Shown: positions 1-20,900 of the stretch, in pieces
Layout: each line of letters starts with the position of its first letter
Numbering within the stretch: position 1 is the first letter of the stretch
Source of the DNA: a virus
IMG/VR virus record: IMGVR_UViG_3300032164_000088
Location: 1-20,932 of that record
Length of the DNA stretch: 20,932 nt
Reading direction: 5' to 3' (one strand)
The notes under the pieces: model-generated
Database searches by the model: none
Told to the model about the DNA's origin: nothing
What the model saw: the letters and a program-made list of their open reading frames with translations, nothing else
Made by a program: the position numbers and the translations under genes

Positions 1-1
1 G

Positions 2-235
2 GTTTCCAGTTCGACGAGTTCTTCATCTTCGAGCCTGTCGGTTTCCAGTTCGACCAGCTCTTCCTCATCGAGCCTGTCGGTTTCCAGCTCGACGAGTTCT
101 TCATCATCGAGCCTGTCGGTTTCCAGCTCGACGAGTTCTTCCTCTTCGAGCCTGTCGGTTTCCAGCTCGACGAGTTCTTCATCTTCGAGCCTGTCGGTTT
201 CCAGCTCGACGAGTTCCTCTTCGTCGAGCCTGAGC
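2..235 (+). repeat. 39-nt in-frame coding tandem repeat (about 6 copies)
   Basis: Units begin with GTTTCCAG at 2, 41, 80, 119, 158 and 197, an exact 39-nt period. Each encodes VSSSTSSSSSSLS. Copies differ mostly at synonymous or Ser-to-Ser positions, and the sixth decays into irregular Ser codons. The period is a multiple of three, so copy-number change would keep the frame. Confidence 0.9.
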
Positions 236-304
236 AGTTCCAGCTTTTCATCGTCCAGTTTAAGTTCCGTCAGCCTGTCATCGAGCAGTTCTTCGAGCGG
301 GTAG
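2..304 (+). CDS. Serine-rich C-terminal tail of a 5'-truncated gene (probable phage structural or head-maturation protein)
   Basis: Only the last 100 codons are inside the window, open from base 2 to a TAG at 302-304. The visible protein is almost entirely Ser, with Leu, Val and Thr punctuation. The first part is a 13-residue unit (VSSSTSSSSSSLS) repeated about six times, and the end is irregular, finishing SSSSG. Nothing catalytic is visible, so function cannot be assigned from sequence. By lambda-like gene order the gene just before the decoration protein would be the head protease/scaffold, but this is position only. Polyserine tails recur on at least five other virion genes here. The following gene begins 32 bases downstream with its own Shine-Dalgarno site. 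Confidence 0.75.
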   Translation, partial: VSSSTSSSSSSLSVSSSTSSSSSSLSVSSSTSSSSSSLSVSSSTSSSSSSLSVSSSTSSSSSSLSVSSSTSSSSSSLSSSSFSSSSLSSVSLSSSSSSSG

Positions 305-2394: not shown

Positions 2395-2430
2395 GATGTT
2401 TGATTTTTGATGTTTGATTTTTGATTTTCG
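2395..2430 (+). repeat. Heptanucleotide repeat tract (TTTGATG/TTTGATT)
   Basis: About five 7-bp units in a row (TTTGATG, TTTGATT, TTTGATG, TTTGATT, TTTGATT) form an AT-rich island in GC-rich surroundings, between a stop codon and the start of the Z-like gene. Confidence 0.85.
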
Positions 2431-2438
2431 CTGGAATC

Positions 2439-3065
2439 ATGGCAGATAGTGCACTACTGGCGGTTCGGTACGATCATGCGGCTTTGCAGGGATTGGCCCG
2501 GCAGGTGGCGGGGATTCGGGGCGGTCTTGCCCGAGTCGTGCCGGCGGCGCTCAATCGCACGGCCGCATGGACTCGCACGCGGCAGCGCCGGGAAGTGGCG
2601 AGCCAATGCCGGATCAAGGTCCGGGCGGCGGACCGACTCCTGCGGACCGACAAGGCCGGCGCCGCCAAATGGAACGCCCAGTGCGAGATCCTGAATCGCC
2701 GGGTCGGGATCGGCAAATTCATCGCGCGGGGAAAGGGGCACGTCACGGCGCAGTTTCCGAGTGGTCTGTCCCTGAGTTATCCGCGCCATTTCCAGGCAAT
2801 CATGCCCACCGGTCATAAAGGCGTATTCGTACGGGCCCGGGTCGTCAAGCCGGGGATCAGTATCCGCCGGCCGGAACACGTCGGCCGGGGCCGCCACGGC
2901 TGGTACAAGTACGCGACGGAATTGCCCATCTACGAGCAGCGGGAGCGGCTCGGCATCGTGATGCGGATGGATTGGCTGCCCGCTCTACAGATCGCCGGTT
3001 CGGCCCAACTGCAAAAAGAGATTGACTCGAAAATCGCCTGGGTGACGGCAAAGGGAAAAGGGTAA
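2439..3065 (+). CDS. Tail completion protein, minor tail protein Z-like
   Basis: 208 residues from ATG 2439 (MADSALLAV...). Residues about 25-70 read GIRGGLARVVPAALNRTA followed by an Arg-rich stretch and 'RIKVRAADRLLR'. This is the hallmark of the prophage minor tail protein Z family: 'ALNRTA', then basic residues, then a Lys/Arg-rich 'iK' motif. GpZ-like proteins act in the last steps of tail completion at the head-proximal end. The gene lies between the FII-like and U-like genes as in lambda. An upstream TTG at 2421 is in frame inside the heptamer tract, but the ATG is the likelier start; its ribosome binding site is weak (CTGGA). Confidence 0.75.
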   Translation: MADSALLAVRYDHAALQGLARQVAGIRGGLARVVPAALNRTAAWTRTRQRREVASQCRIKVRAADRLLRTDKAGAAKWNAQCEILNRRVGIGKFIARGKGHVTAQFPSGLSLSYPRHFQAIMPTGHKGVFVRARVVKPGISIRRPEHVGRGRHGWYKYATELPIYEQRERLGIVMRMDWLPALQIAGSAQLQKEIDSKIAWVTAKGKG

Positions 3066-3067
3066 TC

Positions 3068-3538
3068 ATGGCCGCTTCGATTCGCGAACGGATTTCCGAA
3101 TGGCTCCGCACGGAGGCGGCGAAGATCTCCGGCGTCACGGCCTTGCGGCCGAAGCGCGTCTTCTGGACCGAGGAGCTGACGAAGGACTTGACGGCCGTGA
3201 TCCGCCAGCGGTCCTGCCTTATCGATGATGCGGATAAGACTGACCTGATTTTCGAGCAGGAATACAAAATCACGATAGCCGTGATCGATCGGGACACGGC
3301 GGCCGCCTCGCTCGACACCCGGATCAATCTCGTCATGGCGGCGATCGTCAAGGCCCTGGCGGCGGACCCGTCCTGCGGCGGCCTCGCCGATTCGAATGGC
3401 ATGACCCTGAAGGAGATCGTCTCGCTCCAGGAGGATAGCAACGAGCCGCTGGCGCCGGGCGTCACGGGCGAGAGCCTGCTGCTGCAAGTTAAATTTTCCA
3501 CGTTGAAAACAGACCTCAGCGCCGCCGGCGGTGTCTGA
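3068..3538 (+). CDS. Tail terminator protein, lambda gpU-like
   Basis: 156 residues beginning two bases after the Z-like stop, with AGGGAAAAGGG as ribosome binding site. An alpha/beta pattern is visible: 'IRERISEWLRTEA' helix, 'EYKITIAVIDRD' strand, 'RINLVMAAIVKALAAD' helix, then 'SLLLQVKFST' strand. This matches the gpU/tail-terminator fold, which caps the growing tail tube and forms the ring that joins the head. The position between Z and the tail tube gene is the lambda U slot. No single diagnostic residue exists for this family, so the call leans on context. Confidence 0.65.
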   Translation: MAASIRERISEWLRTEAAKISGVTALRPKRVFWTEELTKDLTAVIRQRSCLIDDADKTDLIFEQEYKITIAVIDRDTAAASLDTRINLVMAAIVKALAADPSCGGLADSNGMTLKEIVSLQEDSNEPLAPGVTGESLLLQVKFSTLKTDLSAAGGV

Positions 3539-3553
3539 CGAAAGGAGTAATCC

Positions 3554-3988
3554 ATGCTCGGTAAAGGAACCACGCTGACCGGCTCGGTGACGGGCCTGAT
3601 CGGCCACATCCGGAACATCAACTTCGAGGGCACCAAGGTCGACAACCTCGACAACACGGACGCCGACACCCCCGGCTATCACCGCACGTTCGAGCCGGGC
3701 CTGATCGACTCCGGCCGCTTCACCTGCGAGGTCCTCTACAACGCGACCTACGCCTGGGCGGTCCTGGCGGCGCTGAAGAACCGCGTCACGGAAAGCTGGA
3801 AGGTCCAGTTCGCCGACGGCCGCCGCCGGTGGTTCTGGGGCTATCCCGACGATAGTTCGCTCGCGGGTCCGCACGATGCCCTGGTCAGTTACAATTTCGG
3901 CATCAAGATCACCGGGGCGATCACGAGCAGTTCGTCCTCCTCCAGCAGCTCGTCGAGCCTGTCCTCCTCCAGCAGTTCCTCGGCCTAA
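3554..3988 (+). CDS. Major tail tube protein, lambda gpV-like, with polyserine C-terminus
   Basis: 144 residues. The N-terminus 'GTTLTGSVTGLIGHIRNINFEG' is shown here in part (GTTLTGSVTGLIGHI); the protein continues with 'DNLDNTD', 'PGLIDSGRFTCEVLYN' and 'KVQFADGRRRWFWGYPDD'. This is the typical pattern of the siphovirus tail tube family, in which subunits stack as hexameric rings. The last 21 residues are T, eleven Ser, Leu, seven Ser, Ala, written with mixed TCC, AGC, TCG and AGT codons, so selection is probably on protein sequence rather than polymerase slippage. In lambda gpV the extra C-terminal domain is displayed on the tail surface; a Ser tail here would likewise be exposed. Shine-Dalgarno is AAAGGAG. 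Confidence 0.8.
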   Translation: MLGKGTTLTGSVTGLIGHIRNINFEGTKVDNLDNTDADTPGYHRTFEPGLIDSGRFTCEVLYNATYAWAVLAALKNRVTESWKVQFADGRRRWFWGYPDDSSLAGPHDALVSYNFGIKITGAITSSSSSSSSSSSLSSSSSSSA

Positions 3989-4001
3989 ACGAAAAAAGGG
4001 G

Positions 4002-4082
4002 CACCACGGAGACACGGAGAACACGGAGAAGAAAGAATAAATGTTTTCCGGTTTTCTCTGTGACCTCTGTGCCTCGGTGGTG
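4002..4082. repeat. Inverted repeat of the CACGGAG type (29-nt arms, 23-nt loop)
   Basis: The left arm 4002-4030 starts CACCACGGAGACACGGAG. The right arm 4054-4082 ends CTCGGTGGTG and is its imperfect reverse complement. It is a small mobile-looking hairpin element inserted between the tail tube and tail chaperone genes. A related half-copy lies at 20872-20900. The ATG at 4041 inside the loop is not a likely start. Confidence 0.75.
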
Positions 4083-4090
4083 AATAGTAA

Positions 4091-4103: not shown

Positions 4104-4472
4104 ATGACACTGACGCGCGAGCAAATCTTGGCGCACCAGAAACTCAAGCAAAAGAAGGTGGATTTCCCGGCCCTCGGCGGCGAGATGCTCTTCCAAGAGA
4201 TGGGGGCGGACGACTGGGAGAATTTCGATCGCAAGGCCCCGAACTATTCCATCCGGCTGTTCATCGCCGGGGCCATCGACGAGAAGGGGATCAAGCTCTT
4301 CAGTGACAAGGACGTCAATCACTTAGCCGGCAAGGGCGCCCACCTGATCGAGAAGGGGGCCCGGGCGGTCCTGGAGCTCTGCGGCGTACTGCCGGAGAGC
4401 GAGGAGGAGATCCTAAAAAACTCCAAGCCGACCCCGCCCGCGCCCAAGAATGGCGAATCGCCCTCGGCCTGA
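4104..4472 (+). CDS. Tail assembly chaperone, lambda gpG-like
   Basis: 122 residues from ATG 4104. 'LTREQILAHQKLKQKKVDFP' is shown only in part (LTREQILAHQKLK); then come 'GGEMLFQEM', 'DEKGIKLFSDKDVNHLAGKG' and 'AVLELCGV'. This is the standard layout of siphovirus tail assembly chaperones: a short N-terminal helix, 'D-x-x-G-x-x-lFsd-x-D' in the middle, and a final helix. It coats the tape measure during tail assembly and is absent from mature virions in lambda. Its 3' part contains a slippery heptamer giving a longer product. Normal termination yields a short Pro-rich tail (KPTPPAPKNG). Confidence 0.8.
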   Translation: MTLTREQILAHQKLKQKKVDFPALGGEMLFQEMGADDWENFDRKAPNYSIRLFIAGAIDEKGIKLFSDKDVNHLAGKGAHLIEKGARAVLELCGVLPESEEEILKNSKPTPPAPKNGESPSA

Positions 4473-4741
4473 ACCGGACCCGGGCGGAGCTGCTGGCGGG
4501 CGTCACCTGCTCGGAACTGGCGACGCTGCGGGTCCTCGACGGGGTCCGGGCTTTCGGCGAGCGGCGGGCGGATTTGCGGGCGGCGAAATTGGCGATGCAC
4601 GTAGTTGCCTGCCTGCGGTCGAGCAAGAGCGGCGTCGTGCACCTGGAGGAGTTCCTCCTGCGGAGCCTGGACGATCCGGAGCCGGAGGAGCGGAACTTCG
4701 ACACGCCTGAGCGGTTCGACGCCCAGGCGGGTTTGGTCTGA
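4104..4741 (+). CDS. Tail assembly chaperone GT-like fusion made by -1 frameshift
   Basis: In the G frame the codons are CTA AAA AAC (4413-4421). A -1 slip on A AAA AAC at 4415-4421 lets ribosomes read on from 4421 with no stop for 106 codons, to TGA 4739-4741, giving about 212 residues in all. The extension reads like a tail-chaperone T domain: 'EWRIALGLNRTRAELL', 'CSELATLRVLDGV', 'FGERRADLRAAKLA', ending just before the tape measure gene. In lambda, G and GT are made by a -1 frameshift in the same place, and T recruits tail tube subunits. The extension frame has no good start codon of its own. The frameshift itself is inferred. Confidence 0.8.
4415..4421 (+). promoter_or_regulatory. Programmed -1 ribosomal frameshift site A AAA AAC
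   Basis: The heptamer has the X XXY YYZ form in exact register with the G-like frame. GC-rich sequence follows: a possible hairpin GGCG/CGCC at about 4452-4462, and CCGCCCG near 4435 could pair with CGGGCGG near 4483. Either could act as the stimulatory structure. Confidence 0.8.
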
Positions 4742-4775
4742 AATCAAAAATCAACAATCATAAATCATAAATCAC
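4742..4775 (+). repeat. Heptanucleotide repeat tract (AAATCAA type)
   Basis: Units AAATCAA, AAATCAA, CAATCAT, AAATCAT, AAATCAC run from the chaperone stop straight to the tape measure ATG, leaving no Shine-Dalgarno sequence. The tract is effectively the leader of the next gene. Confidence 0.9.
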
Positions 4776-6974
4776 ATGGCCGACACCTGGCAAAAATCCG
4801 GCATCGAGTACATCGTCAAGGACTCCACGCGCACGGGCGTAGCGGGCGTGCAGAAGAGTTTGCAGACCCTCGAAAAGACCGCCCAGGGCGTCAGCAAGAT
4901 GCTGGGCACGGCCCTGGCGGTCGGCGTCGGCTACGTGGGAATCTCCAAGCTGGTCAGCGGCTATCAGGAGGTGGCCCAATCGATCAGCGACACGGCCAAA
5001 GCGGCGGACATCCTCCAGATCTCGACGGAGAGCATGAGCGGCCTCAAGTACGTGGCGGAGCAGTCGGAGGTCGCGGGGGCCTCGATGGTCACGTTCCTGG
5101 AGCGGCTGACCCGATTCGGAGCGGAGGCGGCCCAGGGTACGGAGGCGGCGCGAATCGGCCTGCAGCAACTGGGACTCAGCGCCAAAGAGTTGAGCGAGAC
5201 CAGTCCTGATCAGGCGATTCGCAAGCTGGCGGACGCCTTCCAGACGATCCCCAACGCCTCGGACCAGATGCGGCTCGCGTTCGACATCTTCGGCCGGGGC
5301 GGCGCCGAGATGCTAAAGGTCCTGCGTCTCGGCAGTGCCGGGATCGATGAGATGATGGTCCGGGGCCAGAAGTTGGGCGGGGTCTTGACCGAAGTGGACG
5401 CGGCCCTGGCGCACCAGGCGGAAGTCGCCTTGAAGGAACTCCGCACGATTAAGAAGGCGATCCAGGACCAGCTCGTGGTGCAGGTGGCTCCCTATATCGC
5501 GGCGTTGGCGGGCCGTCTTGCGGACGCGGCGGCGGCCGGCGGCGGGTTCGGCGAGACGGTGACGAGTGCGATGGAATCCGTCGCGGTCGCGGCGGGCAAA
5601 GTGCTGGATATCCTCATCAAGATCGAGAACATCAAGAACTCGGTGGCCCTGCGCGCTTACGACGCCGCCTTTAAGAAGGATGTCTTCGATACCACCAAAG
5701 AGGTCTACGCGGACCAGATGAAGCGGGAGGGGAAACAGCCTTGGAGCCTGCTGGGCAAGGGCGGGGTGAGGTACGAGAACCGCTGGGCCCAGGCGGAGGA
5801 GATCGTCCGCAAAGACCGGACTCCCGCCTACGAGGCGGGCCGGGCCCCGCTGGTGCAGGAGGCGAGCAACGCCGAGCAAACCAAGACCTATTTCGCTCAA
5901 CTTCGCCAGCGGGCCCAGGGGATCCGTGAGCAGGCGGAGACGGAGGCCCGGATCAAGGAATACGGCCGCAGCCCGATGGCAGTTTCGAATCCAGCGGGAG
6001 TGATGCCGACGGAGCAGGAGATCAAAGACGCCGAGCAGGCCATCCAAGAAGAAGAGCGAGCGGTCCGGCGGGCGGCGGAGGGGATGCAGCGGCTCCGGGA
6101 CCGGGTCTCGGAGATGGACGCCGCGACGGAGACGGAGATCGAGGTGGTGCGGCGGGCGGGGGACGCCCACGGCAAATTGGGCGAGATCGTGCGTTACGAG
6201 ATGACGGTCCGCGAAGCCTATGGGGATAGTGTCGATGAGGTGACGCGGCGCTTGGAGAATCATCGCCGCGCGCTGGAGCTCCTGTCCCGGGTCGAGTTTT
6301 CGAACCGGTCGCTCGATGACCTGGGCCAGACCTTGACGGACATCGCGTTCGACTTCAAGAACGCCAGCCAGTACGCGGAGCAGTTTTTCAACACCCTCGC
6401 CCGCCGCGCGACCAACGAATTTATCATGCAGCCCTTCATGGATGCGATCAAGCCGGGCGTCGCCTCGCTCTTTGCCGGCGGCGGTCGTCAAAGTTACGGC
6501 AGTCTCGATACCTCCGTCGGCTCGAATTATCAGGCGCAGTCTGATTTCTACGGCTATAGCGCCGAGGTCCATCACGCGGGCGGCGGGGTTGGGGATGCTG
6601 GTCAGACCCGCTATCTGCCCGTGGGCGCTGCCGATCGCTATCTCGCTTCGAACGAGCGGCTGATCGTGGCGCGGGTGGGCGAGGAGGTCCTGACCGAGCA
6701 GGAATCCCGCCGCCAGCGCGTCGCCGTCTATCATGGCGGGGGCATCGTCGGCGGCTCGGCCGAGGCGGCCAGTGTCCCGGCATCGGGCGGTGCCGCGGGC
6801 CGGCCGGACAAAGTCGAGGTCCGGATCAGCAACCCGCCGGGCAGTCCGCTGGAGGCGACGGGCGCCCAGATCTCCTTCGACGGTCCCACGATGATCGTCG
6901 GCGTGATCCTCGACAACATCCGGCGGGGCGGCGTGATGCGGGACCAGATCCGCATGACGGCGCGGGGGGGGTAG
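4776..6974 (+). CDS. Tail tape measure protein
   Basis: 732 residues, the longest of the tail-core genes apart from the tip protein, and directly after the chaperones. Residues about 60-205 hold the typical tape-measure N-terminal region: 'SDTAKAADILQISTESMSGLKY', shown in part as ILQISTESMSGLKY, then 'LGLSAKEL', 'FDIFGRGGAEMLKVLRLG' and 'GGVLTEVDA'. A long Ala/Glu/Arg helical middle (about 300-500) follows, then 'LTDIAFDFKNASQYAEQF' and a glycine-rich tail with 'HHAGGGVGD', 'NERLIVARVGEEVLTEQE' and 'YHGGGIVGG'. It sets tail length and reaches the cell envelope at DNA entry. If mostly helical, a tail of roughly 100 nm would follow. No murein hydrolase motif is apparent. No Shine-Dalgarno is visible; the heptamer tract abuts the ATG. 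Confidence 0.9.
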   Translation: MADTWQKSGIEYIVKDSTRTGVAGVQKSLQTLEKTAQGVSKMLGTALAVGVGYVGISKLVSGYQEVAQSISDTAKAADILQISTESMSGLKYVAEQSEVAGASMVTFLERLTRFGAEAAQGTEAARIGLQQLGLSAKELSETSPDQAIRKLADAFQTIPNASDQMRLAFDIFGRGGAEMLKVLRLGSAGIDEMMVRGQKLGGVLTEVDAALAHQAEVALKELRTIKKAIQDQLVVQVAPYIAALAGRLADAAAAGGGFGETVTSAMESVAVAAGKVLDILIKIENIKNSVALRAYDAAFKKDVFDTTKEVYADQMKREGKQPWSLLGKGGVRYENRWAQAEEIVRKDRTPAYEAGRAPLVQEASNAEQTKTYFAQLRQRAQGIREQAETEARIKEYGRSPMAVSNPAGVMPTEQEIKDAEQAIQEEERAVRRAAEGMQRLRDRVSEMDAATETEIEVVRRAGDAHGKLGEIVRYEMTVREAYGDSVDEVTRRLENHRRALELLSRVEFSNRSLDDLGQTLTDIAFDFKNASQYAEQFFNTLARRATNEFIMQPFMDAIKPGVASLFAGGGRQSYGSLDTSVGSNYQAQSDFYGYSAEVHHAGGGVGDAGQTRYLPVGAADRYLASNERLIVARVGEEVLTEQESRRQRVAVYHGGGIVGGSAEAASVPASGGAAGRPDKVEVRISNPPGSPLEATGAQISFDGPTMIVGVILDNIRRGGVMRDQIRMTARGG

Positions 6975-7010: not shown

Positions 7011-7022
7011 GGGAAGATGCTG

Positions 7023-7565
7023 ATGTCGTCCAGCTCGATTTCATCCAGCCTTTCATCTAGCTCGCTCAGCTCCCTGTCGGTCTCCTCGTCGTCGCTCAGT
7101 TCATCGAGCTCAGCCTCCGTCAGCTCTTCCTCCTCGCTATCCTCCAGCTCCAGCAGCAGTTGCGGCCTGGATTTTCCGGAATTGATGAGGGCCTCGGCTC
7201 GGGGCTTTCCCCAGGAGTTCGTGATCGACCCGGGCGTGGCTGCGGCCCAATTGGGCAATGGCCGCACCCGCACCCGCCGCGAGTGGCAAGACGCCTTTCG
7301 CGGCTGGCGGGACCGGCTCATCAATTGCAGTACGGCCGATTACGCCATTTTCGAGACCTTCTATCGGGTCACCGCCCATCGCAGCGTGCGGCCGTTCACA
7401 TGGACCAATCCCCGGACGCAGGAGCGGGTCCTGGTCCGCTTCTGGTTTCGGGAGCCGCCGCGCTGGCAGCGGGTCGTGGACCATCAGATCGAGTGGGCAG
7501 TGGATTTCACGCTGGCCGAATGCGCCGGGGCGACGGGCACCGGCTATGGAGGCGCGGATGTGTGA
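7023..7565 (+). CDS. Minor tail (distal tail) protein, lambda gpM-like, with polyserine N-terminus
   Basis: 180 residues from ATG 7023, about eight bases after GAGGGAA; ATG 7017 is in frame but too close to it. About the first 48 residues are Ser with scattered Leu, Val, Ile and Ala. The folded part follows: 'EFVIDPGVAAAQLGNGRTRTR', shown only as EFVIDPGVAAAQLG, then 'AIFETFYRVTAHRSVRPFTW', then 'ERVLVRFWFREPPRW' and 'VDFTLAEC'. The pattern (FxxFY, then a loop of aromatic residues and 'TW', then two strands ending 'F-x-L-x-E') matches lambda gpM and other distal-tail-like proteins, and the slot after the tape measure is that of M. It is paralogous to the gene at 14661. This is the only virion gene here whose Ser tract is N-terminal. 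Confidence 0.72.
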   Translation: MSSSSISSSLSSSSLSSLSVSSSSLSSSSSASVSSSSSLSSSSSSSCGLDFPELMRASARGFPQEFVIDPGVAAAQLGNGRTRTRREWQDAFRGWRDRLINCSTADYAIFETFYRVTAHRSVRPFTWTNPRTQERVLVRFWFREPPRWQRVVDHQIEWAVDFTLAECAGATGTGYGGADV

Positions 7566-7656
7566 TATTTGATGTGTGATGTTTGATTGAATTGGAGGCG
7601 GGCGTGCCCGCAAGAGTCTTGAAATCAAAAATCAAAAATCAAAAATCAAACATACC
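7561..7656. repeat. Composite palindromic element: heptamer arms around a GC hairpin
   Basis: Left arm heptamers (TGTGATA, TTTGATG, TGTGATG, TTTGATT), core 7594-7620 (GGAGGCGGGCGTGCCCGC then AAGAGTCTT) and right arm heptamers (AAATCAA four times, ending ACAT). The arms are inverted complements (GATGTTTGATT versus AATCAAACAT), so the whole can fold as one hairpin. The right arm runs up to the L-like ATG. Related cores are at 12221, 12289 and 13532. Confidence 0.88.
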
Positions 7657-8502
7657 ATGAAGCAGATCCCGGACCTCATTCTGCGGCGGCTGAAAGAGCT
7701 GGAGACAACGGAGCCGTTCGTCGCCCTCCTGGACGTGGCGATCAACGACATCGCCGATACCCACATCCGCCTGGCCCGCAATACCCGGACGATCACGTTC
7801 GGCGGGGTAGACTACGTGCCCGCCGCCTTCGACATGCAGGTCCTGGGCGTCACGAAGAGGGAGGGGATTCCGCAGTTCGACCTGGCGATCAGCGACGTAG
7901 AGGAGCGGCTGCGGCCCTCGCTCTATGCGACGAACTATTTCCGGGGTGCGACCCTGACGATCGCGATTGTCATGCCGGACGCCCTCGCCGTCTATTACCA
8001 GGACCTGATCACGGAGTACAGCATTCTCAAAGCCCGGCCGCAAGCGGAGTGGGTCTATCTGACGATCGGCGGGCCGGACCTATTGCGGAAGCGGTTCCCA
8101 TGTGGCCGATTCTTTGCGGACCTCTGCGAGTACCGGTTCGGGACCGATCCCCGCTGTCCCTACGTCCCGATGGCGGTCGATGCGGTCGGTCACGCCGCGG
8201 CCGGCCGGGTCACGGTCACGGCGGCCGGCCACGCGTTCGAGACGGACGATCAGGTGACACTGGCCGGAATCGTGGGGATTACCCCGTCCCTGACGGGCAA
8301 CTACGTAGTGGAAAAGCATGATGCCAACAGCTTCCACCTCGACAGCACCGACGGCGCTAATTACGCCGGGGCCTATACGGGCGGCGGCACGGCGGGTTTC
8401 ACGATCTGCGAGCGGAACCTGGACGCCTGCCGAAAACGGGCCGCGACGCTGCACTTCTGGGGCTGCGTGGGCCTCCGCAATCGCGTGGCCCGACTGGCTT
8501 GA
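7657..8502 (+). CDS. Minor tail protein, lambda gpL-like iron-sulphur protein with an inserted beta domain
   Basis: 281 residues. Residues 1-145 follow the gpL N-terminal region ('FVALLDVAIN', 'ITFGGVDYVPAAFDM', 'LAISDVEERLRP'). Then come 'LCEYRFGTDPRCPY' (Cys157, Cys167) and 'ICERNLDACRKR' (Cys251, Cys258), matching the C-terminal four-cysteine region of lambda gpL, which binds an iron-sulphur cluster near the tail tip. Further Cys are at 149 and 270. Between the two Cys pairs lies an extra block of about 78 residues (172-250) containing 'GHAFETDDQVTLAG' and 'GAYTGGGTAGFTI'. This resembles the small FCCH-like beta domain often seen repeated in phage tail proteins. Position after M and before K-I-J is as in lambda. 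No Shine-Dalgarno is visible. Confidence 0.85.
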   Translation: MKQIPDLILRRLKELETTEPFVALLDVAINDIADTHIRLARNTRTITFGGVDYVPAAFDMQVLGVTKREGIPQFDLAISDVEERLRPSLYATNYFRGATLTIAIVMPDALAVYYQDLITEYSILKARPQAEWVYLTIGGPDLLRKRFPCGRFFADLCEYRFGTDPRCPYVPMAVDAVGHAAAGRVTVTAAGHAFETDDQVTLAGIVGITPSLTGNYVVEKHDANSFHLDSTDGANYAGAYTGGGTAGFTICERNLDACRKRAATLHFWGCVGLRNRVARLA

Positions 8503-11500: not shown

Positions 11501-12173
11501 CAGCATCTCCTACGCGGGCTACGTCTATCCGATCGTCGCCGGCGCCACGACGGATAAATACGTCTGGTTCGATCCCGGCGCCGTGGACCCCTTGACCCTG
11601 AAAACCGGTGCGACCTGGCCCGCCGATCCCGACATCTACAAGATGTTCATCAACGTTGCCGGCCAGCCGGTGGCGCTCTACGGCCAGCAGGTGGTCGGCG
11701 AGGACCCGGCCGGCGTCCTGCCGCTCTTGGTCGATGGCTCCCGGGTCGCGGCCAAATTGGGGATCACCGGCCACGCCTGGTTCGACGCCGAGTATGACAA
11801 CGGCAATTCCGGCGCGGCTAAGACGATCGACTGGCACAACGGCAATAAGCAGCTCCTGACCCTGACCGCGAGCTGCAATTTGACGTTCACCAATCCGGAC
11901 GGCGCGGCGAACCTGGTCCTGCGGCTGATCCAGGGCGGCGCGGGCGGCTACACGCTGACCTTGCCCCCGAGCACCTATATCGTGGGCGGGACGGCCTTGA
12001 CCTTGAGCGCGGCGGTCGGAGCCGAGGACATTCTGACCCTCTATTACCCCGGCGGCGGCAAGGGCTACCGGGTGGTGGCGGCGGCCTCGCAGCAATTGTC
12101 CAGCTCATCGAGCACGTCGTCGTCGTCGTCATCCTCATCGGAATCGTCGTCCAGCTCCTCGGGAGGGGCATAG
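8505..12173 (+). CDS. Fused tail-tip protein: NlpC/P60 peptidase (K) + ubiquitin-like (I) + host-specificity/tip protein (J)
   Basis: 1222 residues from ATG 8505; TTG 8499 is an alternative. Residues about 14-110: NlpC/P60 (C40) peptidase with Cys16 in 'NCWRLV', His73 in 'THLGVVL' and His85 in 'FLHATD'. The 12-residue gap between the two His is typical of the family, as is 'HLGVVL....FLHA'. Residues about 126-194: a beta-grasp ubiquitin-like domain ending 'RPGDRVQVIVLVGKD', as in gpI. Residues about 197-250: a hydrophobic glycine-rich segment, then 'AQGGAVPKIYGDVRV', the start of the gpJ body. A Pro-rich hinge near 946-978 leads to a C-terminal beta domain (about 1091-1194, 'IDWHNGNKQLLTL', 'LVLRLIQGG', 'DILTLYYPGGG') like fibre receptor-binding ends. 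Last comes a Ser tail. It would cut peptidoglycan and bind the host. The MPN/JAB domain of lambda gpK is missing. There is no Shine-Dalgarno. Confidence 0.88.
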   Translation: MINQTSNIKNQTSGNCWRLVQATRQAAGLAMPDQLPWLAGLVRGPAGPARFVRLAAPQTYAIVAIRMGEYVTHLGVVLSPQEFLHATDAGPRVERIEAWAPRIEGFYEFAYPALPPGREESGAVPGSLTILTNPLTGATRAAAGPAAGRSIAEWLAQEGVPAAACLLNGEPLGPKEWSYRPRPGDRVQVIVLVGKDTQMMGMILMVMLAVVSYGVGGYVGGAAGLGWGQGWGAAAAAGIMIGGSLLLNTLLAPGAPDAAQARQAQWSDQTIQAQGGAVPKIYGDVRVHGNIIGHYSELGAVTTRGLQPAWWIAIEEGWRQFFNLTNPELNTPITATPVKLSTQHLRNVLICFGEGPIGSFDVSSLRINDQSITDLAGVAVEYRNGTLEQTAMSKFNTETPIEFFAGYVLPYDTNVRTYTLPGTGYDDAEVTVVYTNGIWSMDQSELVPQRVVLKVEVGDAVGNTWQTLFAGFVWGETTNPLRVVYRASTTYEGGAPLAITRAMQPRFRVTRIEPSYQGTTWGGDCMIGEVRGILNEVFEHPGKVLMQISALPSDLLSGSLDVSIVVHGSILQRWDAAANPPAWVLDAVKPQNPAWIDYDILTYPLISGDGIGTPYAVEEYRGVDPDTIDLTGFLATEVLADGQVPDGLGGAGLENRIEIDTVFGETGNVYDAVRRIGVTGRAGLDLRGNQVGLWCDDARVPCGLFGDGNWLKDSWEPDPIPQADRAAELEIVYYDQDNGDEQTPILVPDLEIETTNRSAIDCRGTRRRSEAWRTGRYNLARNRLLDLAGRFATDIDGIIYEPGDVLYIQLPGRSWGGRLAAVDSGADTVTLDQDVRTSAGACLIVQVRDSVTGGQAAGYRLVASLAGRVVSFAGAWIFPAGVTAAAAADDAYLFGPAAILTDTFEVMEVQPQAHLQFGISVIRYAAGVYTADDEESGISIDSGVAVDPPTAGPPRPPTPAQMAALLPPGALAPPPSRGLRVSALDVTGDGDDTISWLAGSISYAGYVYPIVAGATTDKYVWFDPGAVDPLTLKTGATWPADPDIYKMFINVAGQPVALYGQQVVGEDPAGVLPLLVDGSRVAAKLGITGHAWFDAEYDNGNSGAAKTIDWHNGNKQLLTLTASCNLTFTNPDGAANLVLRLIQGGAGGYTLTLPPSTYIVGGTALTLSAAVGAEDILTLYYPGGGKGYRVVAAASQQLSSSSSTSSSSSSSSESSSSSSGGA

Positions 12174-12350
12174 TGGATGTGTGAAGTGTGATGTTCGAAG
12201 TGTGATGTTTGATTGAGGTTGGAGGCGGGCGTGCCCGCAAGAGTCTTGAAATCAACAATCAAAAATCAGAAATCAAAGATCACAAAATGAGGCGGGCGTG
12301 CCCGCAAGAATCTTGAAATCAACAATCAAAAATCAGAAATCAAAAAGGCC
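12174..12350. repeat. Tandemly duplicated composite repeat region
   Basis: Heptamers of TGTGATG/TTTGATT type (12176-12214) lead into a GGCGGGCGTGCCCGC core at 12221 and AAATCAA/CAATCAA heptamers. Then a second copy of core plus heptamers begins about 67 bases later at 12289, with one mismatch (AAGAGTCTT versus AAGAATCTT) over some 53 bases. This fills most of the 260-base gap after the tip gene; no intact gene is seen in it. Confidence 0.85.
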
Positions 12351-12354
12351 ATGA

Positions 12355-12420
12355 AGCAGAACGGGCACGCCGATCTACTGGGCGGCCCTCTTGACCAACT
12401 TCGGCACACCGCCGGCATAG
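12355..12420 (+). pseudogene. Possible relic of a small tail-associated reading frame
   Basis: One frame reads GTPIYWAALLTNFGTPPA up to a TAG at 12418-12420. Its third positions are almost all G or C, like true genes here. A TGA at 12352 and the lack of a start codon prevent expression as it stands. The ATG at 12351 opens a different frame (26 codons) with less gene-like codon use. This looks like the surviving 3' end of a gene cut by the adjacent repeats, but it is short and uncertain. Confidence 0.3.
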
Positions 12421-13492: not shown

Positions 13493-13596
13493 GGAAGTTT
13501 GATGTTTGAAGTGAGAAGTTTGATTTGAGTTGGAGGCGGGCGTAGCCCGCAAGAGTCTTAAATCAACCATCAACCATCAACAATCAAACTTGACCT
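13493..13596. repeat. Composite palindromic element with arms AAGTTTGAT / ATCAAACTT
   Basis: Left heptamers (GTTTGAT, GTTTGAA, GTGAGAA, GTTTGAT), core at 13532-13560 (GGAGGCGGGCGTAGCCCGC then AAGAGTCTTA), right heptamers (AAATCAA, CCATCAA, CCATCAA, CAATCAA) ending ACTT. The arms again pair as inverted complements. It runs up to the next gene and leaves no ribosome binding site. Confidence 0.88.
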
Positions 13597-14601
13597 ATGG
13601 CTGCTCTGATTCCAGTGATGACTTCGAACACCGCCCCCTCGGGCACGGCCTCGGCCAGTACGGCCCTCTCCACGACCTACGCCGCCTGGAAGGCGATGGA
13701 CGATTCGACCGCCACCTGGTGGAGTACGACGGACGCCGGTTCGGGCACCTGCTGGCTGATGTATTCCTGGGGAGCCAACAACAGCAAAATCATCACGTCG
13801 TACACGATCCGGGCCCGGTCGGGCGCGGGCAATCAGGCGGGCGCCCCCCACGACTTCAAACTGCAGGGTTACAACGGCTCGACCTATACCGATCTCGACA
13901 CGCAGACACACCAGAGTTTCGGCGACTCCGAAGTCAAGACCTACAATTTCAGCAATACGACAGCCTACCAGGCTTACCGGCTGAACATCACGGCGGACAA
14001 TGGCGGCACGTACACCGAGGTCGCGGAATTGGAGCTGCTGACCACGACGCCCTACGCCCGAATCGAGTTGGCGGGCGTGACGATCGTGTGCAAGGCCCCA
14101 GCGCCCCGGATTTTGCTGGCGGGCGTGCAGATCGCGTGGACCCTGACCGCGCCGGGCCAGGCGCTCAATCCTTCCCCGGCGGATGAGGCGATTGACGTTC
14201 TGCTGGACGCCGAATTGTCGTGGACCGATGGCGGCGGAACTGTCACATTCGACGTGTACCTCGGCACGGACCCGGACGATTTGGATCTGGTCAGTGACGA
14301 TCAGGCCGGTCTATCCTATCAGCCGCCGGCCGCCCTCGATCCGGGCACGATCTATTACTGGCAAATCGACGCGACGAACGCGGTGGGCACGACCGCGGGC
14401 GACATCTGGTCCTTCACGACGGCCGCCTCCTCTTCGAGCTCGAGCAGCAGTTCCAGCCTTTCCTCGTCGAGCAGTTCCGAATCCGTGTCGTCTTCATCCT
14501 CATCGTCATCGTCCTCCTCCTCCAGCAGTTCCAGCTCCTCGAGCAGTATGGCCGCCGAGGAAACCGGCATCGTGACGATGTTCCTGGGCTTCCACTTTTG
14601 A
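13597..14601 (+). CDS. Discoidin (F5/8 type C)-like plus FN3-like adhesin with polyserine tract
   Basis: 334 residues. About 10-148: an F5/8 type C-like carbohydrate-binding domain ('TYAAWKAMDDSTATWWST', 'SKIITSYTIRARSG', 'PHDFKLQGYNGSTYTDL', 'AYRLNITADNGG', 'VAELELL'). About 152-182: two copies of a short motif, 'ARIELAGVTIVCK' and 'PRILLAGVQIAW'. About 188-276: a fibronectin type III-like domain ('LNPSPADEAIDV', 'VTFDVYLGTDPDDLDLV', 'DPGTIYYWQIDATN', 'IWSFTTAA'). Then about 40 residues nearly all Ser, and a final 17-residue peptide starting MAAEETG. It is probably a secreted-looking virion surface or fibre protein binding host glycans. No signal peptide is seen, which fits a virion rather than an exported protein. 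Confidence 0.75.
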   Translation: MAALIPVMTSNTAPSGTASASTALSTTYAAWKAMDDSTATWWSTTDAGSGTCWLMYSWGANNSKIITSYTIRARSGAGNQAGAPHDFKLQGYNGSTYTDLDTQTHQSFGDSEVKTYNFSNTTAYQAYRLNITADNGGTYTEVAELELLTTTPYARIELAGVTIVCKAPAPRILLAGVQIAWTLTAPGQALNPSPADEAIDVLLDAELSWTDGGGTVTFDVYLGTDPDDLDLVSDDQAGLSYQPPAALDPGTIYYWQIDATNAVGTTAGDIWSFTTAASSSSSSSSSSLSSSSSSESVSSSSSSSSSSSSSSSSSSSSMAAEETGIVTMFLGFHF

Positions 14602-14611
14602 GCGGCCTCTC

Positions 14612-14650
14612 TGAAAATTCGGAAATCGGAAATCGGAAATAGTAAATTCT
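14612..14650 (+). repeat. Heptanucleotide repeat tract (AAATCGG type)
   Basis: AAATCGG, AAATCGG, AAATAGT, AAATTCT units between the discoidin-like gene and the second M-like gene. This is the same subtype (AAATCGG) as the tracts at 17991 and 20167. Confidence 0.85.
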
Positions 14651-15192: not shown

Positions 15193-15801
15193 ATGACAAC
15201 CGCGATCGACTATGCCACGTTGCGGCGGCAATCCCACGGCCGCCTGGCCATCGAGGATATGCGGCTTTTGGTCCGGGCCTGCGCCGCCTGCGAAGCCCGC
15301 ACGATTCTGGAAATCGGGGCGGCCGACGGCGGCTCATCCGTGATCCTGGCGGCGCAGGCGGCGGAGCGGGAGGGGCGGCTCTATTCCATCGAGGGCAATC
15401 CGAAAGCCCTGATGCGCGCGAACCTCGCGGCCTACGGTTTGCAGGATCGATGCACCTTGCTGCCCGCCTGGTCGCCGTGGCTGGGGCCGTTGGAGCGGCA
15501 GATTCCGGCGCGTGTGGATCTTCTCTTCATCGACGGCCGTCACGATATTCGCTGGTGCCTGGCGGACTATCACTATTGGGAGCCGCGGGTCCGGCCCGGC
15601 GGCGTGATCGTATTCCACGACACGGGCGGCCTGTGCCGCGAGGACCGGGCCCAGCCGGACTTCGGCCAGCCCGGATACGTGCCCCTGGTCCGCCGGGCGT
15701 TGGCCATCATTCTCGCGACCGATCCCCTGGTCCAGATCGACGCGAGCGACGTTGTGGACGGCGGCGCGATCGCCTTCGCAAAGGGGGTGAAAGATGAGTG
15801 A
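15193..15801 (+). CDS. Class I SAM-dependent methyltransferase (Methyltransf_24 type), first of a pair
   Basis: 202 residues. SAM-binding motif I is 'ILEIGAADGGSS' (about 38-49), the ribose-binding acid is Glu67 in 'YSIEGNP', then 'LLFIDGRHD' (about 110-118) and 'GGVIVFHDTGG' (about 136-146). This order and the 'FIDGxHD ... GGxxxxHD' signature are those of the Methyltransf_24/cephalosporin-hydroxylase-like family, which methylates small molecules, sugars among them. It begins the run of glycan genes. The next gene overlaps it by eight bases. The substrate is unknown; neighbours suggest a sugar. A DNA methyltransferase is unlikely because no DPPY- or PC-type motif is seen. Confidence 0.8.
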   Translation: MTTAIDYATLRRQSHGRLAIEDMRLLVRACAACEARTILEIGAADGGSSVILAAQAAEREGRLYSIEGNPKALMRANLAAYGLQDRCTLLPAWSPWLGPLERQIPARVDLLFIDGRHDIRWCLADYHYWEPRVRPGGVIVFHDTGGLCREDRAQPDFGQPGYVPLVRRALAIILATDPLVQIDASDVVDGGAIAFAKGVKDE

Positions 15802-16387
15802 TGGTTTCCCGGATCTGGCCGAATGGAGTGCGGCCGTGGTGCACCCCGATGACGAGGGCAAATTCCGTACCCAGAGATTTCACGACTATTATCGCCAGAA
15901 GTACCTCATCGCCGCCCTGTTCGCCCCCGCTTCCATCGCGGAGATCGGGGTCCGCTGGGGCTATTCCGCGTGGTCATTTTTGCGGGCCTGTCCCCGGGCG
16001 GCCTACGACGGTTTCGATCTCCAGCAAGGGACACACGGGGGGGCCAAAGGGGCCGACACTTTCGACTGGTGTTTGCAATTGCTCGCCCGCGATTATCCGG
16101 ATGCCTCGGTGGCGTTCCATCGGGCGGACACGCAGGCCCTCGATACGTTGGGCGGGCCCTACGACCTGATCCACGTGGATGGCGATCACACCGAGCGCGG
16201 CTGCCGGCACGATCTGGATTTGGCGTGGAACGCCGCGGCCGCCGGCGGTTTGATTCTGGTGGACGATTACGATTACATTCCCGGGGTCCATGCGGCGGTA
16301 GATGCCTTTTGCCGGGCCCGGCCGCGGGCCGGCCAAATCGCCGTGCCCTCATTGCGCGGCGAGTATCTGATTCGAAAGGAGGACTGA
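15794..16387 (+). CDS. Class I SAM-dependent methyltransferase (Methyltransf_24 type), second of a pair
   Basis: 197 residues. Motif I is 'IAEIGVRWGYSA' (about 48-59), then 'AYDGFDLQQG', 'YDLIHVDGDHTERG' (about 123-136) and 'GGLILVDDYDYIPGV' (about 151-165). The 'HVDGDH ... GG.ILVDDY' signature is very typical of Methyltransf_24 enzymes encoded in polysaccharide loci. Its ATG lies inside the end of the first methyltransferase gene, after GGGGGTGAAAG, so translation is coupled. The two are only distantly alike and are unlikely to be a recent duplication. A sugar O-methyltransferase is the best guess. Confidence 0.8.
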   Translation: MSDGFPDLAEWSAAVVHPDDEGKFRTQRFHDYYRQKYLIAALFAPASIAEIGVRWGYSAWSFLRACPRAAYDGFDLQQGTHGGAKGADTFDWCLQLLARDYPDASVAFHRADTQALDTLGGPYDLIHVDGDHTERGCRHDLDLAWNAAAAGGLILVDDYDYIPGVHAAVDAFCRARPRAGQIAVPSLRGEYLIRKED

Positions 16388-17097
16388 TGGATTTGTATTT
16401 CTTCTGCGCGGTCGACGAGAATCCCACCTATCGAAAAGAAGCCGAGATCCTGATCGAATCCGGCCGAGTCTTCGGGCGGGAGATTCACCTGTACGATATC
16501 CCTACCACTGAGGTCTGGAATCGGTACAAGGTCAATCTGTTCCTCGCGGACCTGCCGGCGGCCGACCGGTATATCTACCTGGACAGCGACTGCGTCTTGA
16601 CCGGTCCCGGCGATTGGGAGGCCCCGGACTGCCTCGGCGTCTGTGACGTGCTCTACTATTGCGACGCCTTCGACCGGTCCCGCCACACGAAGGGATTCAT
16701 GCGGAATCACACGCTCCTCGTCGGCGAGAAAAAAGGGTACGACTACCTGGTCCAGCTCTATCTGGAGCATGGCCAGCCACCCTGGTGCAATTCAGGTGTC
16801 GTTGTCCTATCGGCCGAGCAACGTCTGCCGTTCGCCCGGGTCTGGAAAGACTGGATGAACCGGATCGATGCCCAGTGCGAGAAGGGCTTCATGGTGGGCG
16901 ATGAGGGGGCGCTGCTGGTGGCGCGGCAAGAGTACGGCCTGCCGCTGCTGCCGCCGCGGTTCAACGGCATGTGCAAATGGCAGCCGATCTTCGATTGGCA
17001 CGTCTTGATCCACGCCGACGGCAACGTCGGCGGTCCGAAACGGCAACCTTATCTGGATGCGATTCAACGCGTCCGCAATTTGAAGGAGAAACGATGA
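16387..17097 (+). CDS. GT-A fold glycosyltransferase with DxD motif (GT8-like)
   Basis: 236 residues from ATG 16387, which overlaps the previous TGA by one base and follows AAAGGAGG. 'YIYLDSDCVLTG' (Asp66, Asp68) is the metal- and nucleotide-sugar-binding DxD motif. 'WCNSGVVVLSAEQ' corresponds to the 'NSGvmli' acceptor-side motif of GT8-like enzymes, and 'HVLIHADGNVGGPK' near the end gives the C-terminal His loop. It would transfer a sugar from a nucleotide donor, in the cytoplasm. Neither donor nor acceptor can be read from sequence. The cluster position suggests priming or extension of a glycan on a virion protein or on the host surface. Confidence 0.78.
   Translation: MDLYFFCAVDENPTYRKEAEILIESGRVFGREIHLYDIPTTEVWNRYKVNLFLADLPAADRYIYLDSDCVLTGPGDWEAPDCLGVCDVLYYCDAFDRSRHTKGFMRNHTLLVGEKKGYDYLVQLYLEHGQPPWCNSGVVVLSAEQRLPFARVWKDWMNRIDAQCEKGFMVGDEGALLVARQEYGLPLLPPRFNGMCKWQPIFDWHVLIHADGNVGGPKRQPYLDAIQRVRNLKEKR
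17083..17094 (+). promoter_or_regulatory. Extended Shine-Dalgarno leader AAGGAGAAACGA
   Basis: Lies inside the end of the glycosyltransferase gene. Spacing to ATG 17097 fits the other copies of this leader better than spacing to ATG 17094. Confidence 0.7.
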
Positions 17098-17978
17098 TGA
17101 AAGTATTGGTACTCGGCGGCGCAGGCTTCATCGGCCGTCATGTTTGTGATCTCTTGATGCAGCGGGGCCACGTGGTCACGGCCTTCGACCCGGCCCCGCT
17201 GGAATTGCCGGCCCCGCACGCGGGCGTGCGCGGGGACGTGCGGGATGCAACGGCCGTGCAGTGCTATGTGGCCCAGCATGACGCCGTGGTGCACCTGGCC
17301 GGTATTCTCGGCACGGCGGAGACCGTGGACCGGCCCGGCCCGGCCATCGAGGTCAATATCCTCGGCGCCTTGAACGTCTTCGAGGCGGTCCGCCGGGAAG
17401 GCAAACTCGCGGTGACGATCACGGTCGGCAATCACTGGATGCTGAACAGCTACTCCATCACCAAGAGCTGCGCTGAGCGATTGGCCCTGATGTACGATCG
17501 CGAGCACGGGACGCGGATCGCGGTCGTGCGGGGTCTCAATGCCTACGGACCCGGCCAGAAGGCCAAGCCCGTCCGCAAAGTGATACCGAATTTCATTCTG
17601 CCGGCCCTGCGCGGCCAGGACCTGACGATCTACGGGGATGGCGAGCAGATCATGGACTTCATCTACGTCCGCGATCTGGCGTCGATTTTGCTGACGGCAT
17701 TGTTCCGCGACCACGGGTGCTACGACCGGATCTTCGAGGCGGGCAGCGGCCGGCGCACGACGATCAATGAGGTCGCCGAGTGCGTGATTCAGGCGGCCGG
17801 TTCCCGCTCCCGGATCTGTCACCATCCGATGCGGCCCGGCGAAATCGCCAACAGTGTGGTACTGGCGGATACGGAGACCTTGCGGCCGCTCGGCGTGGAC
17901 GTGGCGGGGATGGTGTCCCTGGAGGACGGTCTCCGGCAGACGATTCCCTGGTACCGAGAGCATCTGGCGGACCTGTGA
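17097..17978 (+). CDS. NAD-dependent sugar epimerase/dehydratase (extended SDR)
   Basis: 293 residues from ATG 17097; ATG 17094 is also possible and would add one Met. The N-terminal Rossmann motif is 'VLVLGGAGFIGRHV' (GxxGxxG at about 7-13). Then come 'GDVRDATAV' for the adenine end, 'VVHLAGILG', 'EVNILGALNVFEAV', the catalytic YxxxK 'YSITK' (Tyr119, Lys123), 'VVRGLNAYGPGQ' and 'MDFIYVRDLASILL'. This is the classic UDP-/dTDP-sugar epimerase-dehydratase family, making an activated sugar such as a 4-epimer or a 4-keto sugar. The length is normal. It overlaps the upstream glycosyltransferase gene and so belongs to the same operon. The usual catalytic Ser/Thr region reads 'TITVGNHW', slightly unusual. 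Confidence 0.85.
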   Translation: MKVLVLGGAGFIGRHVCDLLMQRGHVVTAFDPAPLELPAPHAGVRGDVRDATAVQCYVAQHDAVVHLAGILGTAETVDRPGPAIEVNILGALNVFEAVRREGKLAVTITVGNHWMLNSYSITKSCAERLALMYDREHGTRIAVVRGLNAYGPGQKAKPVRKVIPNFILPALRGQDLTIYGDGEQIMDFIYVRDLASILLTALFRDHGCYDRIFEAGSGRRTTINEVAECVIQAAGSRSRICHHPMRPGEIANSVVLADTETLRPLGVDVAGMVSLEDGLRQTIPWYREHLADL

Positions 17979-17987
17979 GGGGGCATT

Positions 17988-18719
17988 ATGAAATCGGAAA
18001 TCGGAAATGGTAAATCGGAAATCTGGCCGGCTCCGCCCTGGCACGGCGAGTTCGGCTGGGAGGTAATGAGTTGGGCGCCCTTCTGTCGGGCCCGCAGCCG
18101 CACGGGGCGCGTCGGCATTACGAGCTTCGCCGCCAGCCTGGCACTATACGCCGACTTCGCCTGGGAGTTTCACGATCACGGGGCGAGCGGCCGGAGCCTC
18201 GTCTATCGCAAGGATTTCGGCATGTACCGCAGCGGCGGCCCCGGCTTCGAGCATTTTCGCTACGGCGATCCGGACCGGGCGGAGCCGTTCGACGTACTGA
18301 TCCACGCCCGGGGCATCGGGCGGAAATCCGCGATCAATTATCGCCATTGGGATAGCATCAGTCTTATGCTCCTGGGGGGTGGGATCAAAGCCGCCTCGAT
18401 CGGCACGCTCCAGGACCTTATCGTCCCCGGCACGCGGGATCTGCGGGGCCTGCCGTTGGAGCGATTGATGGACCTCTGTTTAGCGGCGGATGTCACGGTG
18501 GGGTGCAGCTCGGGCGTCATGCACTTGGCCGCCGCCTGCGGCTGCGGCCTCGTCGTCTGGGGCGACACGAAGACCCGCTACCGCGAGACGCTGGAGACGC
18601 GGTACAAAGAGACCTGGAATCCGCAGCACGTCGACGTCGCCTGGCTCGACGCCGACGATTGGCAGCCGGACCCCGGCCGCGTGATCCGTGCCATAGAACA
18701 AATCAACAATTCCCCGTAG
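17988..18719 (+). CDS. GT9-like (heptosyltransferase-type) glycan protein with repeat-derived N-terminus
   Basis: 243 residues, ten bases after the epimerase stop, with GAGGGGG as ribosome binding site. The first 13 residues, MKSEIGNGKSEIW, are encoded by AAATCGG-type heptamers. The domain starts at 'HGEFGWEVMSWAPFCRA'. Near the C-terminus 'DVTVGCSSGVMHLAAACGCG' followed by 'LVVWGD' matches the 'SgxmHlaaalG.p.v.lfG' loop of GT9/GT-B enzymes that binds the nucleotide-sugar phosphate. It is shorter than full GT9 enzymes (about 320-350), so it may be a minimal or partner subunit. The stop codon lies within a 29-bp palindromic repeat at 18716, so the original C-terminus may have been changed. Confidence 0.65.
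   Translation: MKSEIGNGKSEIWPAPPWHGEFGWEVMSWAPFCRARSRTGRVGITSFAASLALYADFAWEFHDHGASGRSLVYRKDFGMYRSGGPGFEHFRYGDPDRAEPFDVLIHARGIGRKSAINYRHWDSISLMLLGGGIKAASIGTLQDLIVPGTRDLRGLPLERLMDLCLAADVTVGCSSGVMHLAAACGCGLVVWGDTKTRYRETLETRYKETWNPQHVDVAWLDADDWQPDPGRVIRAIEQINNSP
17991..18026 (+). repeat. Translated heptanucleotide repeat tract (AAATCGG type)
   Basis: AAATCGG, AAATCGG, AAATGGT, AAATCGG, AAATCTG directly after the ATG at 17988. It is translated as KSEIGNGKSEIW. Here, unlike most loci, the tract is downstream of the start codon. Confidence 0.88.
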
Positions 18720-18744
18720 GGGCGGGTTTCAAACCCGCCCGTAC
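18716..18744. repeat. 29-bp palindromic repeat, copy 1 (GGGCGGGTTT type)
   Basis: Ten-base arms GGGCGGGTTT and AAACCCGCCC flank a single C, making a strong hairpin. The 29 bp at 18716-18744 are the exact reverse complement of 19736-19764. It contains the TAG that ends the GT9-like gene and could serve as a transcript-end hairpin there. Confidence 0.9.
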
Positions 18745-18769
18745 AGAAACCCGCCCAATGGGGCGCCAA

Positions 18770-18783
18770 AAGGAGAAAACGAC
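18770..18783 (+). promoter_or_regulatory. Extended Shine-Dalgarno leader AAGGAGAAAACGAC
   Basis: One base longer than the other copies; sets the start of the two-domain glycosyltransferase at 18784. Confidence 0.75.
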
Positions 18784-20841: not shown

Positions 20842-20871
20842 TCGCTATATCTCGCCGGGCGATAAGAGGAT

Positions 20872-20900
20872 TCACCCCAGAGGCACAGAGGACCCAGAGG
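20872..20900. repeat. Half-copy of the CACGGAG-type inverted repeat
   Basis: CACCCCAGAGGCACAGAGG and following bases resemble one arm of the inverted repeat at 4002-4082. The partner arm, if any, lies beyond the window. Confidence 0.5.

Follow-up and report, generated by a model that had tools for sequence, protein, structure and literature searches.

The gene ahead of the tape measure gene in this phage raises the question of whether it specifies one protein or two, that is, whether some ribosomes slip back by one base near its end and continue into a second domain. The window analyzed here is an entire virus record (IMGVR_UViG_3300032164_000088) of 20,932 bases with a G+C content of 64%. 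An earlier note on this DNA had proposed a programmed -1 frameshift that yields a G/GT pair of tail chaperones. That proposal is supported by the register of the slip site, the homologies of both halves, the gene order, the conservation of the site and the frame of selection. Collectively, these sequence-based lines of evidence suggest, with a probability of roughly 94%, that the locus is the G/GT tail assembly chaperone gene of a tailed phage, with a -1 ribosomal slip at A AAA AAC.

The tail genes are arranged on the forward strand in the order tail completion, tail terminator, tail tube, G, T and tape measure (Table 1). Long serine-rich, low-complexity stretches (SSSSSSLSSSSSS) are found in several structural proteins of the window (1-304, 3921-3988, 7020-7165, 12100-12173 and 14410-14560); the tail-tube protein, for example, ends with one such stretch, and the gene at 7017 begins with one.

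Table 1. Features of the tail module and of the proposed frameshift site in the window.
Feature	Position	Strand	Family match or basis
Tail completion gene	2421-3065	+	phrog_27
Tail terminator gene	3068-3538	+	phrog_4204
Major tail (tube) protein; C-terminal tail serine-rich	3554-3988	+	PF16460, E 6.4e-5; phrog_158, E 8.8e-9
G-like tail assembly chaperone ORF, 122 aa	4104-4472	+	phrog_344
Shine-Dalgarno-like purine stretch aggaggag, possible stimulator	4402-4409	+	sequence reading, graded weak
Slippery heptamer A AAA AAC	4415-4421	+	X XXY YYZ register with the G frame
T-like domain, -1 frame, 106 codons + TGA	4421-4741	+	PF06223, phrog_337
Candidate stimulatory hairpin	4427-4468	+	fold prediction, graded weak
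Tape measure protein	4776-6974	+	phrog_9483, E 3.8e-43

The G-like ORF matches the tail assembly chaperone family over residues 2-111 (E 7.1e-14) and adjoins the tape measure gene on its upstream side, as expected of a G/GT chaperone. Translation likely starts at ATG 4104, which follows aaaaggaga. Mechanical extension of the ORF reaches ATG 4041, and this extension falls inside a stretch of about 100 bases that is not alignable with the relatives. The stretch in question (3985-4090, between the tail-tube and G genes) resembles a dispersed repeat (caccacggagacacggagaacacggag...), and its surroundings have a short partial copy at 20870-20899 on the opposite strand. As the stretch gave no alignment with relatives L023-L025, a recent insertion is possible.

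Near the 3' end of this ORF, the 0 frame at 4410-4424 reads ATC CTA AAA AAC TCC. Thus, as the earlier note had claimed, the codons of G divide the heptamer exactly as the X XXY YYZ pattern requires; the heptamer is followed by 16 sense codons and then TGA at 4470-4472, which places it 17 codons from the end of G with the stop included. Both the register and the position close to the end of G are those of a G/GT chaperone gene. Given the residues Leu-Lys-Asn and the codon usage of the window, such a heptamer would arise by chance in about 1% of cases. The forward genes of the window contain seven XXXYYYZ heptamers in register, and only two of them, at 4415 and 10397, are conserved across the compared region. 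Those at 811, 1799, 2729, 3053 and 8394 were rejected as rival slip sites, being absent from the matching place in L023-L025; GGGTTTC at 10397 is conserved, but it lies in the middle of a gene and is followed by only 37 open -1 codons.

Slippage of RNA polymerase at runs of A or T can likewise change the reading frame, and the site includes a homopolymer of six A. The fusion could in principle be made during transcription, an explanation that we regard as very unlikely. Six A is a short run for polymerase slippage, the C that follows the run fits the X XXY YYZ rule with exact register, and a G/T gene pair is the classical case of ribosomal frameshifting.

Two nearby elements are candidate stimulators of a ribosomal slip. 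First, a predicted hairpin begins 5 nt past the heptamer, with an outer stem (GCCGA ... UCGGC) and an inner stem. The fold of 4422-4471 has a predicted energy of -14.4 kcal/mol (z -1.9 against shuffled sequences), and the equivalent fold of L010 has one of -17.4 (z -2.4 against shuffles); windows larger than 4422-4471 fold no better than shuffles. Among the three haplotypes compared, two-sided covariation was absent from the hairpin, one pair differs in a single partner (G-C to G-U), and one inner pair forms in the relatives only. Second, the purine stretch ends 5 nt ahead of the heptamer and is shrunk to GGAG in the relatives. The hairpin or the purine stretch may help slippage. In E. coli, which is possibly not the host here, A_AAA_AAC is reportedly much less shift-prone than A_AAA_AAG (PMC5009743). 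We consider it unlikely that the host is unusually efficient in decoding A AAA AAC, or relies on the hairpin and the purine stretch as a specific stimulator in doing so, and that the G:GT ratio is in consequence unlike that of lambda.

A -1 shift at the heptamer reads on as LQADPARAQEWRIALGLNRTRAELL... from 4421 through 106 codons to the TGA at 4739-4741, in agreement with the open frame first described. The resulting GT protein of about 212 aa would join G residues 1-106 to the T-like domain. The length of the open frame, which had been put forward as an argument, carries little weight, since at least 107 open -1 codons follow 22.5% of all codon sites of forward genes in this G+C-rich window. 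A T-like match of the extension had been set beforehand as one test of the proposal, and it was obtained both with PF06223 (Phage_tail_T; 25.5 bits, E 1.8e-5) and with phrog_337 (E 1.3e-5, and 3.7e-7 in a relative). The PF06223 scores of the window and of relative L017 (24.9 bits) have significant E-values and fall just under the curated cut-off of 25.9 bits, by 0.4 bit in the case of the window, and the domain is therefore called T-like rather than a formal member of PF06223. Three other lines of evidence do exceed chance, namely the homologies found for G and for the extension, the conservation in relatives and the codon-level selection in the -1 frame.

The relatives used for comparison are contigs L009-L011, and the comparison comprises two lineages only, with three haplotypes. 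Amino acid identity of L009-L011 to the window is 82% in G and 91% in T. The heptamer is invariant in every relative found that spans the site, so the loss in relatives that would have spoken against the earlier note is not seen. L009-L011 also keep the -1 frame, and they keep the position of the 0-frame stop with a different codon (TGA to TAG). The last observation, together with the presence of the same A run in contigs of several other metagenome records (L007-L011), contradicts the idea that a sequencing or assembly indel splits one gene here, and although homopolymer errors are generally common, such an artifact is the least credible of the explanations considered.

Codon-level comparison indicates which frame is under selection in each part of the locus. 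Before the heptamer, dN/dS in G is 0.21 against L009. In the part coding for T only, substitutions fall 11/5/23 on the three codon positions of the -1 frame, and dN/dS is 0.136 in this frame; the remaining forward frames give 1.05 and 3.4. In the G/T overlap (4422-4472), dN/dS is 0.10 for the -1 frame, compared with 1.2 for the 0 frame. The counts in the overlap are small (six substitutions), but they locate the switch of coding frame at the heptamer or in its immediate vicinity. Where L009 and L010 differ within the overlap (window position 4432), the substitution is silent in the -1 frame and replaces Thr by Ile in the 0 frame. Furthermore, an exact identity run of 44 nt with L009 (4406-4449) spans the heptamer, and simulations with position-specific rates produced a heptamer-covering run of this kind in 0.3% of cases; the run drops to 26 nt when the third haplotype, L010, is added. 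Thus, across these two lineages, the slip site and both frames are kept under selection, as expected of a G/GT chaperone gene.

These results also bear on the possibility that T is a separately translated gene, with a start downstream of the heptamer that is its own or is coupled to the stop codon of G. A separate T is annotated in some phages; Vibrio phage PhiPS02, for example, has a separate ORF between its G-like gene and the tape measure gene. Here, however, the -1 frame is open from 4307, and its first start codons are TTG 4574, TTG 4589 and ATG 4595. The claim of the earlier note that the domain lacks a start codon is right in effect, as the first ATG, GTG or TTG is found at residue 52 or later of the 106, and initiation at 4574 or later would cost the first half of the conserved domain. 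Moreover, purifying selection in the -1 frame starts right past the heptamer, well ahead of any start codon. Independent initiation of T is thus highly improbable, slightly more so than slippage of the polymerase, and the downstream frame is best described as a T-family domain of a G/GT chaperone that lacks its own start.

Searches beyond these lineages added little. Wider alignment-based scans of viral contigs yielded no third lineage, and no relatives of G or T were found in the bacterial genomes searched. In the phage-record collection no record matches the G or T of the window at E 0.01, the NCBIfam search gave chance-level matches only, and the search of solved structures returned no relatives.

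For the G/GT gene proposed here, we infer ribosomal slippage, its rate and the roles of the products in assembly. Most ribosomes would translate the ORF into the 122-aa G-like chaperone. A minority would move back by one base at A AAA AAC, with both tRNAs re-pairing after the slip, the Lys tRNA on AAA and the Asn tRNA on AAA with a third-position mismatch, and would go on in the -1 frame to produce the GT protein. By analogy with lambda, the tape measure protein would be coated by many copies of G and few of GT, the T domain serving to recruit the tail-tube subunit. G would accordingly bind the tape measure protein and T the tail-tube protein. Such a lambda-like function is the best explanation because gene order and families are shared with lambda.

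Several other features of the window were noted. Beyond the tail module, the genes at 15193-20754 resemble, by eye, methyltransferases, a sugar-nucleotide epimerase and glycosyltransferases, which suggests that the phage makes or decorates a glycan. Many intergenic gaps contain A+T-rich runs of a 7-base unit (aaatcaa / aaatcgg), often right before start codons (4739-4778, 7620-7659, 12247-12286, 12314-12353, 13558-13597, 14617-14647, 17989-18028 and 20165-20218). In addition, a 72-base intergenic element (gaggcgggcgtgcccgcaagagtcttgaaatcaa...) is present four times, ahead of different genes (7595-7666, 12222-12293, 12289-12360 and 13533-13604).

The locus would be a sequence-divergent example of a frameshift that is conserved across long-tailed phages, from an uncultivated lineage without close relatives in phage records. 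Its value for annotation is that the 106-residue T domain would escape a gene caller. In addition, the frame-specific selection test provides a way to support such a site from two related metagenomic lineages.

The G/GT arrangement is conserved widely among long-tailed phages (PMC5009743). In lambda, gpG outnumbers gpGT by about 30:1; both attach to the tape measure protein, and recruitment of the tail-tube subunit falls to the T part (PMC5009743). As in the window, the lambda genes lie between the tail-tube and tape-measure genes (V-G-T-H), and the slip proposed here resembles that of lambda in its -1 direction and in its place close to the 3' end of G. Both T domains are in the -1 frame and match phrog_337 in nearly equal register (lambda T at E 4.7e-7 over profile positions 4-97, the T of the window over 9-82). 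In contrast, the slip site is G GGA AAG in lambda and A AAA AAC in the window, and lambda G matches phrog_42 whereas the G of the window matches phrog_344. Direct pairwise comparison of the G and T of the window with those of lambda detected no similarity, and the link to lambda therefore runs through phrog_337 only.

Among other systems, the slip site can be likened, by description, to that of the tail chaperones of Caulobacter phage phiCbK and relatives, for which an AAAAAAC site is reported; the pre-tape-measure chaperones gp93/gp94 of phiCbK combine this site with a -1 shift ahead of the tape measure gene, as in the window (PMC3556154). An AAAAAAC site has been tentatively reported for the tail chaperone gene of Paenibacillus phage Dragolir (PMC6003738). 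Haloarchaeal virus HCTV-2, likened by description, is also reported to have an A_AAA_AAC slip site for its g-t genes, but its host is an archaeon (PMC5009743). The G-like gene of PhiPS02, like that of the window, matches phrog_344 (and also phrog_25875), and the tape measure domain is related. It differs from the window in its slip sequence, with an A-rich end (GC A AAA AAA G) ahead of the stop, and in the ORF that follows, which is short and divergent and has a gene annotation of its own. Read as a G/GT gene, the locus is an ordinary, fresh example of a known mechanism, for which both the arrangement and AAAAAAC sites in tail chaperones have already been reported.
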